Source: an uncultured archaeon | Lineage (GTDB): Archaea > Iainarchaeota > Iainarchaeia > Iainarchaeales > Iainarchaeaceae | DNA: 47,189 nucleotides | Reading direction: 5' to 3' | NCBI GenBank assembly: GCA_902386385.1 | Contig: CABMIU010000044.1 | Span: 1 to 47,189 of the forward strand | Shown: one piece after another, positions 33,442-39,865 of the stretch | How positions within the stretch are numbered: the stretch's first letter is position 1 | Layout: each line of letters starts with the position of its first letter | Notes under the pieces: generated by a model | Databases searched by the model: none | What the model saw: only the letters and a program-made list of their open reading frames with translations | What the model was told of the DNA's origin: nothing | Translations under genes and position numbers: made by a program

Positions 33442-33515
33442 GGGCCCGTAGCTCAGCCTGGTAGAGCACGACGCTCTTAACGTCGCTGTCGTGAGTTCAA
33501 ATCTCACCGGGCTCG
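33442..33515 (+). tRNA. tRNA-Lys(CTT)
   Basis: GGGCCCGTAGCTCAGCCTGGTAGAGCACGACGCTCTTAACGTCGCTGTCGTGAGTTCAAATCTCACCGGGCTC-G. Confidence 0.95.
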
Positions 33516-33522
33516 CTTTCGC

Positions 33523-33555
33523 CTTTTTTCTTTTCTTGAGAAGAAAAGAAAAAAG
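33523..33555. repeat. Polypyrimidine/polypurine hairpin, copy 3, 3' of tRNA-Lys(CTT)
   Basis: CTTTTTTCTTTTCTT-GAG-AAGAAAAGAAAAAAG, perfect 15-bp stem; tail AAAAAAGAAAAGAACGGCTTCGCGGAAAAG. Confidence 0.85.
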
Positions 33556-33667
33556 CCGAGCCAAAAAAGAAAAGAACGGCTTCGCGGAAAAGCTTGGTCA
33601 AAAAGAAAAAGAACCGCCCACGCTTGTTTCTCACCTTTTTTTAATCCGTTCTTTTGAATCCCTTATT

Positions 33668-36121
33668 ATGGCTAAAAATGAAAAACTCGGGTCCAAAGCC
33701 GCAAAGCCGGCAAAGCCCGTTGCCGAAGCTGCACGGTCTGAAAAGCCCAAGGCGGAATTCGTGAGGTCTCAAAAGGTCAATGCAGGAGACGTGCGCCCGG
33801 ACGAGGCGCCCCTTAAGGAGCAGTGGCCTGACAACGTCGCAAGGAAAATTATCGAGGCCAAAGGTGACCTTCCGGGGTATACAATAGCTGCTGGCATCAC
33901 CCCGAGCGGTGTCGTGCACATCGGCAATTTCAGGGAAATAATCACAGTTGACCTCGTTGCCCGCGCCCTGAAGAAGCTCGGGAAAAAAGTAAGGTTCATT
34001 TATTCCTGGGACGATTATGACGTTTTCAGGAAGATTCCCGCGAATTTCCCGCAAAAGGAGATGCTTGAGAAGTATTTGCGCCAGCCGATTGTTGATGTTC
34101 CCGACCCTTTTGTTGGGGCGGACGGCAAGCCCTGCCATTCGAGCTACGCGGAGCACAATGAAAAGGCGGTTGAGGATGTTCTCCCGCTGCTTGGCGTTTC
34201 CCCGATTTTCCTAAATCAAGCCAAGAAATACCGCGCCTGCGAGTATGCTGAGGGCATGAAAACCGCTTTGCAGAACAAGGGCAAGGTCAAGGCAATCCTT
34301 GACGAGTGGCGTGCAGAGGACCTTGAAGGAATATGGAACCCGGTGAGGGTTTTCTGCAGCAAGTGCAACACCGACCGCACGACAATAACCAATTATGACG
34401 GCAATTATACGCTCGCTTATTCATGCGAGTGCGGCTTCAGCGAGTCTTTTGATTTCAGGAAGAAAGGGATTGGCAAGCTGCAGTGGCGCGTTGACTGGCC
34501 GATGCGCTGGGCTTTCGAGAAGGTAACATTCGAGCCTTCGGGGAAGGAGCATTCCTCGCAGGGCGGCAGCAACACCACTGCGGAGGAAATCGTGAAGGCG
34601 GTTTGGGGTTACGAGCCGCCTTTCCACATAATGTATGAGTTCATTGCAATCAAGGGCACTGGAGGGAAGATGTCCAGCTCCAAGGGCAACACCGTTGACC
34701 TGAAGGAGATGATGTCTGTGTATGAGCCTTCCGTAATCCGCTACCTTTTTGTGCGCCCCATCCCTTCCAAGGCATTCGATGTTTCTTTTGACGGCGACGT
34801 TATAACGTTTTACGAGGCCTTTGACCGCCTTGAGCGTGTCTACTTCGGTGTTGAGCCTGCGAAGGAATCCGAGCTTGAGCAGCTGAAGAGCATTTACGAG
34901 TTCAGCGCCGTGGAGATTCCGAGGGGGATGCCTTTCCAGCCGAGCTTCAGGCACATAACGACAATCCTCCAGCTGAACCTGCTTGACGAGAAGAAGGCTT
35001 TTGGCTATTTCAGGAATGAGGTGAAAAGCAGTTTCGACGAGGCGCGGTTGAGGGCGAGGATTTCGTGCGCAAAGTACTGGCTGATGAATTATGCGCCTGA
35101 CCAGTTCCTTTTCAGGGTCCAGGATTCGGTGAGCGATGCAGCCCTTTCAATGCCGCAGCTGCACAAGGATGCGCTCCGCGAGTTCGCCGGCAAGCTGAAT
35201 GGCGGGATGGATGAGGAGAAGCTTGGCTCTGTTTTCAAGGAAATTTCTGAAAAGAGGCAAATCCCTATTGCGGATTTGTTCAGGTCCGCTTACATGGTGC
35301 TTGTAAACAAGGAGCGCGGCCCCAAGCTCTTCAACCTGGTCGGGCATGTCGGTGCTGAAACGCTCAAAAAGCTCGTGGCTGAGCTGAATTCGAGGAAGCT
35401 CGAAAAAAAGCACGAAATAAACCTGCCCGGCCTGAAGCAGCTCAAGGCAAAGTCGGATTTCGAGGTTTCCCCTGCTGTCAGGGCAAAGTTTCCTTCCCTG
35501 CGCGTTGGCGTTGTTGTCGTGGAGGGCATTGACAATTCACAGAAATCTGATGAAATTGTAACTCTCATAAGGTCCCAGGAGGCTTCCCTGCGCGAAAAGT
35601 ATTTCGGCAAGGATTTCGCTTCACTGAAAGGCATAAAGGCCTGGCGCGATGCATACTCCGCTTTCGGGGCGAAGCCGAAGGAATACAGGTCCTCGGTTGA
35701 ATCCCTTGTGAGGCGTGTCCTGAAGGGCGACCCGTTGCCGTCAATAAACCCGCTCGTAGACCTTTACAATTGCATTTCAATAAAATATATTCTTCCTGCC
35801 GGCTCTGATGACCTCGGAAATGTTGAAGGCCCGGTACGTCTCCGCTTTGCGGATGGTGGGGAGCCTTTCATGAGAATCGGCTCTTCGGAGAACGACCCGG
35901 CATTAAATGGCGAGGTGATTTACTCTGACAATTCAGGGGCTTTGTGCAGGCGCTGGAACTGGCGCGAGTGTGACAGGACAAAGCTCACCGAAGATACCGA
36001 GAGGGCGATAATTTACGTTGAAAGCCTCAATGCAGATGACCGGCTGGCTGAAGCCGTTTCCGAGCTGGCTGAGCTTGCAAAGAAGCATCTCGGGGCGAAA
36101 GCGAGTGCATTCATTGTTTGA
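33668..36121 (+). CDS. lysS: Class I lysyl-tRNA synthetase fused to a C-terminal B3/B4 (COG3382-like) domain
   Basis: HIGN and GGKMSSSKGN signatures, class I LysRS body; from ~35455: SPAVRAKFPSLRVGVVVVEGIDN...AWRDAYSAFGAKPKEYRSSVESLVRRVLKGDPLPSINPLVDLYNCISIKYILPAGSDDL...GEVIYSDNSGALCRRWNWRECDRTKLT. Confidence 0.92.
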   Translation: MAKNEKLGSKAAKPAKPVAEAARSEKPKAEFVRSQKVNAGDVRPDEAPLKEQWPDNVARKIIEAKGDLPGYTIAAGITPSGVVHIGNFREIITVDLVARALKKLGKKVRFIYSWDDYDVFRKIPANFPQKEMLEKYLRQPIVDVPDPFVGADGKPCHSSYAEHNEKAVEDVLPLLGVSPIFLNQAKKYRACEYAEGMKTALQNKGKVKAILDEWRAEDLEGIWNPVRVFCSKCNTDRTTITNYDGNYTLAYSCECGFSESFDFRKKGIGKLQWRVDWPMRWAFEKVTFEPSGKEHSSQGGSNTTAEEIVKAVWGYEPPFHIMYEFIAIKGTGGKMSSSKGNTVDLKEMMSVYEPSVIRYLFVRPIPSKAFDVSFDGDVITFYEAFDRLERVYFGVEPAKESELEQLKSIYEFSAVEIPRGMPFQPSFRHITTILQLNLLDEKKAFGYFRNEVKSSFDEARLRARISCAKYWLMNYAPDQFLFRVQDSVSDAALSMPQLHKDALREFAGKLNGGMDEEKLGSVFKEISEKRQIPIADLFRSAYMVLVNKERGPKLFNLVGHVGAETLKKLVAELNSRKLEKKHEINLPGLKQLKAKSDFEVSPAVRAKFPSLRVGVVVVEGIDNSQKSDEIVTLIRSQEASLREKYFGKDFASLKGIKAWRDAYSAFGAKPKEYRSSVESLVRRVLKGDPLPSINPLVDLYNCISIKYILPAGSDDLGNVEGPVRLRFADGGEPFMRIGSSENDPALNGEVIYSDNSGALCRRWNWRECDRTKLTEDTERAIIYVESLNADDRLAEAVSELAELAKKHLGAKASAFIV

Positions 36122-36283
36122 ATTCCGCCCTGTTCTTCAGGCTTTTTAATGTTTGTGCAGGGATTTCTTTTAGCCCAGGAAATCATTATTTCCTCCAAAT
36201 TAGCCCTTGCGGCGAAAGTCCAAGGCCTATTGAGTCCACAAAGGGACGAAGATAGGGCGCTCCCTTCGGGGCGCATGTTCGGA

Positions 36284-36357
36284 GGGCCCGTAGCTCAGCC
36301 TGGTAGAGCACCGGCCTTTTAAGCCGGCTGTCGTGAGTTCAAATCTCACCGGGCTCG
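36284..36357 (+). tRNA. tRNA-Lys(TTT)
   Basis: GGGCCCGTAGCTCAGCCTGGTAGAGCACCGGCCTTTTAAGCCGGCTGTCGTGAGTTCAAATCTCACCGGGCTC-G. Confidence 0.95.
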
Positions 36358-38435: not shown

Positions 38436-38794
38436 GGTAATTGGTCAAATGATGATGGCCAAATAATTTATCTTCCGCCTTGCGGTTTTTTTTGCAGTTT
38501 GTTTGCCTTCGGTCTTGCATTAAGGGCTGCTTCGAGTCTGGACTGCCAAAAAGTTGGGTTTCGAGAAACGGAATCAAACTGTATGGCCATTCTACGCAGC
38601 AATGCGATTTTATCTTTGGGCAGCGATGTTAACCTTGGATTTTGCAAAAAAGAGCGAAATTCTTGTTTCGGACCTAACTCTGACAATTGGCCTCCTATTT
38701 TGCCGGGTCGTTAGGGGGATTGCCAAATTAGCGTAATTTGAGCATCATTAACTGTTTGAGCAAACAGGTTTTTTGGTAGCATGCAATTTTGGTT

Positions 38795-38856: not shown

Positions 38857-39618
38857 ATGGGCCTTGGGGAAGTGCTTTTGGATTTTGATGAGTTTGCAGC
38901 TTCCTATGAGAAACCCTATTTGTTTGATTTTAACAGGGTTCGGCATTGGTTCCCGCTTTCTGCTTCCGAGGATTTCGCTGGCTTGATTGGCGACTTGATG
39001 GGCGATGGCCATTTGCAGGCAAAGCCAAAGTGGAGGTTAGATTTCACTTCCAATTCCGCTGAAGAGCTTCAGAGATTTGGCTATGTTGTAAAAAACTTGT
39101 TCGGTGTTGATGGCAAAATAAGGGCCTGCACAACAAATTGCTATGGCACAATGAATTACGGCGTAAATTGCAAGCCGTTGGCAAGGCTGATGGTTCTTTG
39201 CGGTGTCCCTTCAGGTTCGAAGCCTGACAAAGTGTACCAGATTCCAAAGTGGATTCTTGGCAACAAAGCGTATTTCAGGAAATTCGTTTCAAGGTATTTT
39301 ACCTGCGAGGGCTCGGTTGATATGCACGGGGCGATTTCATTGGCCATTTTCAAGGAAGAAAGTTTGGTCGAAAATGGAATTGGCTTTTTGAGTGACATCA
39401 GATTAGGCCTTGACCGGTTTTTTGATGTGCAGACTGAGAAGCCATTTCTTTGGAGCCGGTTGTCTTATAGGAAGGAGAAGCCGCCTTCAAGGGGTATAGT
39501 GTTGAAAATAAGGCGCAGGCGTTCCTTGTTGGCATTTTACAAGAACGTCGGTTTTGAAAGTCTGGAAAAAAATTTGAAACTGAATGCCTTGCTGGAGCGC
39601 CAAGGGAATGTTTTATAA
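38857..39618 (+). CDS. LAGLIDADG-type endonuclease
   Basis: FAGLIGDLMGDGHLQAKPKWRLDFTS...FRKFVSRYFTCEGSVDMHGAISLAIF, two LAGLIDADG-like motifs with acidic residues. Confidence 0.8.
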   Translation: MGLGEVLLDFDEFAASYEKPYLFDFNRVRHWFPLSASEDFAGLIGDLMGDGHLQAKPKWRLDFTSNSAEELQRFGYVVKNLFGVDGKIRACTTNCYGTMNYGVNCKPLARLMVLCGVPSGSKPDKVYQIPKWILGNKAYFRKFVSRYFTCEGSVDMHGAISLAIFKEESLVENGIGFLSDIRLGLDRFFDVQTEKPFLWSRLSYRKEKPPSRGIVLKIRRRRSLLAFYKNVGFESLEKNLKLNALLERQGNVL

Positions 39619-39658
39619 AATACTCCCAGTACCTTTATGTGAGAATGCATTCTTGGTT

Positions 39659-39865
39659 GGGAAGGTAATAAATCAAACAGTTTTATGCTTGTTGATTTAC
39701 CTATTGCTCAGCCTGGGAGAGCACTCGACGGGCACAAGCGCCATTTAATGGCTTGTTTTGCTCGGGTGAAGCTGAAGATGGGGCAATGGGGCGGAAGCTT
39801 CATTGTTAATCTTCATTGCCTCTTCAGGTACCGGGGTGTCGCGGGTTCAAATCCCGCCCTTCCCA
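39659..39865 (+). tRNA. tRNA-Phe(GAA) apparently interrupted by three introns (about 38, 37 and 58 nt)
   Basis: Exon pieces GGGAAGGTA (39659-39667), GCTCAGCCTGGGAGAGCACTCG (39706-39727), GGTGAAG (39765-39771), ACCGGGGTGTCGCGGGTTCAAATCCCGCCCTTCCC-A (39830-39865); acceptor, D, anticodon (CTCGG/CCGGG) and T stems form after removal; total 74 nt. Confidence 0.75.

Follow-up and report, generated by a model that had tools for sequence, protein, structure and literature searches.

How could a tRNA gene whose parts lie in separate pieces supply a genome with its tRNA-Phe, and how would it have come to be interrupted three times? These questions are raised by a 207 bp stretch of the archaeal contig analysed here (the window, 47,189 nucleotides in all), whose host genome, like the relatives with which we compare it, belongs to the Diapherotrites (DPANN). 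ARAGORN and Rfam both report four ordinary tRNAs in the window and neither detects the unspliced gene. A first-pass annotation, made by a model from the sequence alone, had read the stretch as one cryptic tRNA-Phe(GAA) in pieces, with three introns whose removal (133 nt) would leave a 74-nt cloverleaf, and our analysis bears this out: every piece lies where the annotation placed it (Table 1), ARAGORN calls the spliced 74-mer (GGGAAGGTA-GCTCAGCCTGGGAGAGCACTCG-GCTGAAG-ACCGGGGTGTCGCGGGTTCAAATCCCGCCCTTCCCA) as Phe(GAA) with an intact cloverleaf once the introns are taken out, and the corresponding exons of a second genome of the same genus (G001) are identical. The acceptor stem has 7 bp (GGGAAGG/CCTTCCC) followed by the discriminator A, the D arm is GCTC-AGCCTGGGA-GAGC, and the T arm is GCGGG-TTCAAAT-CCCGC. 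With a loose proxy for a scattered tRNA (acceptor and T-stem pairing, a D arm and TGAAG within 200 nt) this is the single place in the window that matches, and 40 Markov copies of the window together gave one match. Elsewhere in the window, at 33442–36357, a lysyl-tRNA-synthetase-like ORF is flanked by tRNA-Lys(CTT) and tRNA-Lys(TTT).

Table 1. Features of the tRNA-Phe locus, in window coordinates
Feature	Position	Strand	Remarks
LAGLIDADG homing-endonuclease gene, type A	38857..39618	+	Pfam PF14528, E=5.6e-5; homologs upstream of tRNA-Phe elsewhere
TATA-like box TTTTATAAAA, upstream of tRNA-Phe	39611..39620	+	candidate, from sequence only
tRNA-Phe(GAA) gene, 4 exons and 3 introns	39659..39865	+	exons 2-4 identical to the G001 gene
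Exon 1, tRNA positions 1-9 (GGGAAGGTA)	39659..39667	+	7/7 pairing with 39858-39864; same in G001
Intron 1, 38 nt, site 9/10	39668..39705	+	homologous intron in G001
Exon 2, positions 10-30	39706..39727	+	
Intron 2, 43 nt, site 30/31	39728..39770	+	site conserved in relatives; absent in G001
Exon 3, positions 31-37 (GCTGAAG), anticodon GAA at 39774-39776	39771..39777	+	unbroken in G001
Intron 3, 52 nt, canonical site 37/38	39778..39829	+	absent in G001
Exon 4, positions 38-73, T arm and 3' acceptor strand	39830..39865	+	

The exon/intron anatomy is established, at the level of sequence, by comparison between genomes. In G001 the gene consists of exon 1, a 38-nt intron and one unbroken stretch that equals the spliced exons 2–4 of our genome base for base, and this identity settles where introns 2 and 3 begin and end. 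A TATA-like box resembling the candidate in Table 1 also precedes the G001 gene. Six other relatives (G006, G020, G024, G008, G049 and G043) have introns 2 and 3 and no intron 1. Bulge-helix-bulge (BHB) motifs are present at all three junctions, with three, four and four central pairs in introns 1, 2 and 3, respectively. Intron 1 has the central helix AAGG/CCTA (3/4 pairs), bulges TA^A and TT^G, and the inner helix TAAATCAA/TTGATTTA; the one mismatch in its central helix is found both in the window's genome (G000) and in G001, and a genome of another family, G074, has a 9/10 intron at the same site and in the same register with 4/4 central pairs (GCGG/CCGT). Intron 2 has the central helix CACT/GGTG, bulges CG^A and AA^G, the inner helix CGGGC/GCTCG and an outer helix of only 2 bp, and its site is kept with compensatory changes in the six relatives just named. 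Intron 3 has the central helix CTGA/TCAG and bulges AG^A and GT^A. Introns 1 (one mismatch) and 2 (2-bp outer helix) thus have relaxed BHB motifs. Over 26 scored junctions the central 4-bp helix has a mean of 3.65 of 4 pairs, against 1.4–1.8 in slid registers, and its pairs vary compensatorily between genomes. The annotation's length for intron 1 (about 38 nt) and its total of 133 nt stand, and its values of about 37 and about 58 nt for introns 2 and 3 give way to 43 and 52 nt. Two of its details fall with them. The register GGTA/TACC for intron 1 is rejected in favour of AAGG/CCTA, since it would leave four surplus exon bases, and the unusual G32 is an artefact of the wrong intron boundaries: intron 2 ends at GGTGAA^GCTGAAG, and the mature anticodon loop is CTGAAGA with C32, as G001 shows.

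Other kinds of interrupted or broken gene fit the locus poorly. It is no split or permuted tRNA, as the four exons stand in normal order inside 207 bp, and an Rfam search at the gathering threshold found no group I, group II or other catalytic-intron family in the window (its only hits are the four tRNAs). The annotation had named a second, intact tRNA-Phe(GAA) elsewhere as the finding that would overturn its reading. None turned up in the 84%-complete assembly: no decoded tRNA among the 35 matches of an Rfam tRNA scan reads Phe, and the genome has a single instance of the Phe-type D-arm pattern. Given this completeness a second copy is unlikely, and 39659–39865 is probably the only tRNA-Phe gene of the genome. 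That the locus is a decayed pseudogene, with the working tRNA-Phe gene hidden in the missing 16%, draws on the incompleteness of the assembly, but all of the tRNA stems are intact, exons 2–4 are identical to those of the sister genome and the introns have retained their BHB pairing, so we regard it as highly improbable. We conclude that the stretch is very probably a three-intron tRNA-Phe(GAA) gene whose introns are spliced by the EndA endonuclease. A functional gene of this kind would yield a precursor transcript of about 207 nt, from which EndA, apparently of the short alpha4 type (below), would excise the introns at 9/10, 30/31 and 37/38, and the exons would then be ligated into the 74-nt tRNA. 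Since such a gene is missed by both ARAGORN and Rfam, genomes that carry one can appear to have no tRNA-Phe.

The number of tRNA-Phe introns across the order runs from none (in most genomes) to four. Four-intron genes are found in G040 (4/5, D loop, 30/31 and 37/38) and G074 (9/10, 30/31, 37/38 and variable region), and introns have been gained and lost rapidly within the Diapherotrites. A tRNA-Phe intron at 30/31 is present in many archaea (Bathyarchaeota, Nitrososphaerales, Desulfurococcales, Aenigmatarchaeota and Micrarchaeota), and three Aenigmatarchaeota loci (L100, L102 and L120), read by eye, carry apparent tRNA-Phe genes with 3–4 introns. At L100:2700-3900 a tRNA-Asn gene and a tRNA-Phe gene stand side by side, each apparently with several introns (about four in that for Phe), and a LAGLIDADG ORF reads into the tRNA-Asn. 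In the window's own genome, the tRNA-Gln(TTG) called by ARAGORN at G000:C10:6525-6584 (L031) resembles a tRNA-Glu(CTC) with a D-loop intron.

The enzyme expected to process these introns presents a difficulty. The host genome has one EndA gene of 170 codons, whose product aligns over residues 3–170 with residues 5–171 of the 171-residue alpha4 enzyme from Methanocaldococcus jannaschii (PDB 1a79), the alignment having one gap of one residue; the two proteins are collinear over their full length, with no extra loop. Loops of 11–18 residues have been tied to relaxed EndA specificity (PMC12397907), and the near-gapless alignment therefore leaves no room for them; the CSL/ASL insertion is likewise absent from the host protein in this alignment. 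No second (beta) subunit was found, there being one convincing PF01974 match in the 84%-complete genome. Exactly one match was also found in 50 of 58 relatives (these 50 being all with any match) and in each of three Aenigmatarchaeota genomes with 3–4 introns, and the same search gave 2–3 matches in Micrarchaeota and another control. The EndA type, which the annotation had proposed checking, thus appears from the PF01974 search and the collinearity with 1a79 to be a single short alpha4-type enzyme, putatively a homotetramer. In excerpts of two reviews (PMC4090602, PMC6379350), alpha4 and alpha2 enzymes are said to accompany single canonical introns, and only (alpha-beta)2 and epsilon2 enzymes to process relaxed motifs efficiently. 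Contrary to what is expected of the M. jannaschii type, the host EndA coexists with introns at 9/10 and 30/31 in the tRNA-Phe gene and at 20/21 in a tRNA-Val(GAC) gene of the same genome, so the rule that alpha4 enzymes go with 37/38 introns only does not fit the Diapherotrites lineage. Position alone may be no obstacle, because the central helices of introns 2 and 3 are fully paired; the critical points for the rule are the mismatch in intron 1 and, in intron 2, the outer helix of only 2 bp, and these, together with an enzyme of a type said to handle canonical introns only, are what counts against splicing by EndA. Either this EndA is more tolerant than has been thought or a factor is missing from the picture.

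A possible source of the introns lies next door. The annotation, sound on the tRNA, was silent on this EndA paradox and on the gene directly upstream of the tRNA-Phe gene, whose product is a LAGLIDADG homing-endonuclease-like protein with predicted activity. Its PF14528 match passes the curated cut-off and both motif regions align with homologs; the likely start is the ATG at 38857 (a longer ORF begins at a TTG at 38773), and the stop codon lies 40 bp before the tRNA. A scan of the contigs of the genome with this protein as query found nothing. LAGLIDADG genes of three types, A (the type found here), B and C, lie directly upstream of tRNA-Phe on the same strand in relatives, and such a gene or its remnant was found in 17 of the 50 genomes with a decoded tRNA-Phe. 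Introns are present in the tRNA-Phe genes of 16 of these 17 and of 5 of the 33 others (Fisher p=6e-8), in a table for which introns were classified semi-manually, whose genomes are mutually related and in part incomplete as MAGs, and which omits genomes whose tRNA-Phe escaped both searches. The association persists when loci found via the endonuclease are omitted (p=7e-7) and in a within-family permutation (p=0.006). One D-arm match, in G003, proved to be a tRNA-Lys and was removed from the table. The type of gene also goes with the position of the intron, the types having been defined after inspection of the data: introns at 4/5 or 9/10 are present in 6/6 genomes with type A and 2/44 others (p=2e-6), and introns at 30/31 in 6 of 7 intron-bearing cases with type B (p=0.06, not significant alone). 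The type-A gene is reduced to a broken remnant in G001, where introns 2 and 3 are lacking.

In the Aenigmatarchaeota locus L087 the last endonuclease codons overlap the tRNA 5' end. Had the endonuclease gene inserted inside the tRNA, a duplicated tRNA 5' end would be expected upstream of it; a search revealed none. Location of the endonuclease inside an acceptor-stem intron was rejected, as in G040, G042 and G053 the gene ends before the 4/5 intron. Nor is tRNA-Phe the only neighbour. Type-B loci abut or overlap a tRNA gene in 26 of 27 cases (Phe, Thr, Glu, Asn, Gly, Leu and others), counting the best locus per genome with readable downstream sequence, two of them judged by eye. Four of the six testable free-standing LAGLIDADG genes of the window's genome adjoin a tRNA (Phe, His, Val and Met), and 9 of 23 in Aenigmatarchaeota lie beside a tRNA detected by ARAGORN, with several more seen by eye to read into tRNA-like or rRNA-like sequence. 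None of seven intein-type genes is next to a tRNA, and ARAGORN found no tRNA in 89 kb of EndA loci. Among the individual cases in the window's genome, the gene at G000:C30:8492-8602 (L020, L311), which ARAGORN labels Tyr, is a tRNA-Val(GAC) interrupted at 20/21 by an intron of 38 nt whose BHB motif is good; a LAGLIDADG ORF terminates 16 nt inside the 5' end of this tRNA. A 422-codon LAGLIDADG ORF at G000:C10:13757-14490 (L306) extends 16 nt into the 5' end of a same-strand tRNA-His, and another at G000:C10:9765-10084 (L309) is convergent with a tRNA-Met, sharing 62 nt with the 3' part of that gene; neither of these two tRNAs has an intron. In many Diapherotrites (L282-L294, L300) the 3' end of a tRNA-Thr (mostly GGT) is overlapped by a convergent LAGLIDADG gene, and these tRNA-Thr genes are mostly intronless.

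What, then, brought the introns to tRNA-Phe? The most likely cause of their gain, although we hold it at slightly less than even confidence, is collaborative homing. The upstream endonuclease would cut tRNA-Phe alleles that have no intron in its target, repair from an intron-bearing copy would carry over the endonuclease gene and the introns together, and the introns would protect the host's own tRNA-Phe gene from the neighbouring endonuclease. The adjacent, free-standing gene that such homing calls for is present here, as in the other genomes with an upstream gene or remnant counted above. Its association with introns, the match between type A and intron position, the preference of type-B loci for tRNAs and a cyanophage precedent (below) speak for it; the evidence that an intron in the target blocks cutting is indirect, namely the 6/6 type-A genomes with 4/5 or 9/10 introns. 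Against it stand G089, where an intact type-B gene lies beside an intronless tRNA-Phe (with an anticodon stem unlike those of other type-B hosts), five genomes with introns and no adjacent endonuclease gene (G004, G005, G006, G011 and G074), and the intronless tRNA-His and tRNA-Met beside LAGLIDADG genes.

Several of these observations would be expected if the three-intron tRNA is real and spliced and the endonuclease has nothing to do with it, tRNA genes being favoured landing sites for LAGLIDADG genes and introns turning over independently, as in Thermoproteales. The five genomes just listed agree with such independence, as do tRNA-His, tRNA-Met and most tRNA-Thr(GGT), which adjoin endonuclease genes and are intronless. 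We give this explanation, too, nearly an even chance; it accounts poorly for the strength of the association between gene and intron in tRNA-Phe, within families as well as among them, and for the agreement between endonuclease type and intron position. It is also conceivable, if improbable, that the endonuclease does target tRNA-Phe and that something else maintains the introns (RNA folding, modification or avoidance of integrases), the link being a by-product of shared lineage history. The genomes are indeed related, the within-family test reaches only p=0.006 and the classification was semi-manual, but families f2, f8 and f14 all show the pattern, and the type-A case in Aenigmatarchaeota, L087, has a 4/5 intron too. 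Returning to collaborative homing, we put forward, with rather less than an even chance of being right, the wider proposal that in Diapherotrites, and probably in Aenigmatarchaeota, tRNA genes are the targets of a class of free-standing LAGLIDADG endonucleases, and that the BHB introns of tRNA-Phe were gained and kept by breaking these targets, travelling with the endonuclease gene. If this is true, collaborative homing drives the gain of non-canonical tRNA introns, in genomes with a supposedly strict alpha4 EndA. A flanking endonuclease type that predicts intron position makes a mechanism for the gain of such introns directly testable.

The tRNA-Phe gene itself belongs to an already known class, the multi-intron archaeal tRNA genes, described from Thermoproteales, ARMAN and others in excerpts of PMC4033280 and PMC4090602. 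Of the positions listed in those excerpts 30/31 and 37/38 are both present here, whereas 9/10 and 4/5 are not among them, and our case differs further in its Diapherotrites host, its apparently single short alpha4-type EndA, the flanking LAGLIDADG gene and the four introns of some relatives. The available part of PMC4090602 calls the transposition mechanism of the Thermoproteales tRNA introns unknown. LAGLIDADG genes inside archaeal rRNA introns (PMC4496867, PMC6125680) are likewise tied to the introns of a structural RNA gene, but here the endonuclease gene stands upstream of the tRNA gene, on the same strand and within none of its introns; we found no report in the open-licence literature of LAGLIDADG genes adjoining archaeal tRNA genes. 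Collaborative homing has been demonstrated for F-CphI beside the intron-bearing psbA gene of cyanophage S-PM2 (PMC6083498). Our locus differs from that system in lying in an archaeal cell and in a tRNA gene, in having BHB introns, of the kind that protein enzymes splice, and in its nuclease, which is of the LAGLIDADG class rather than Endo VII-type, and for it we propose homing from comparison of genomes. What the two have in common is a free-standing endonuclease gene whose neighbour carries an intron; this intron would keep the enzyme from cutting its own locus, and the cutting could serve to spread it.
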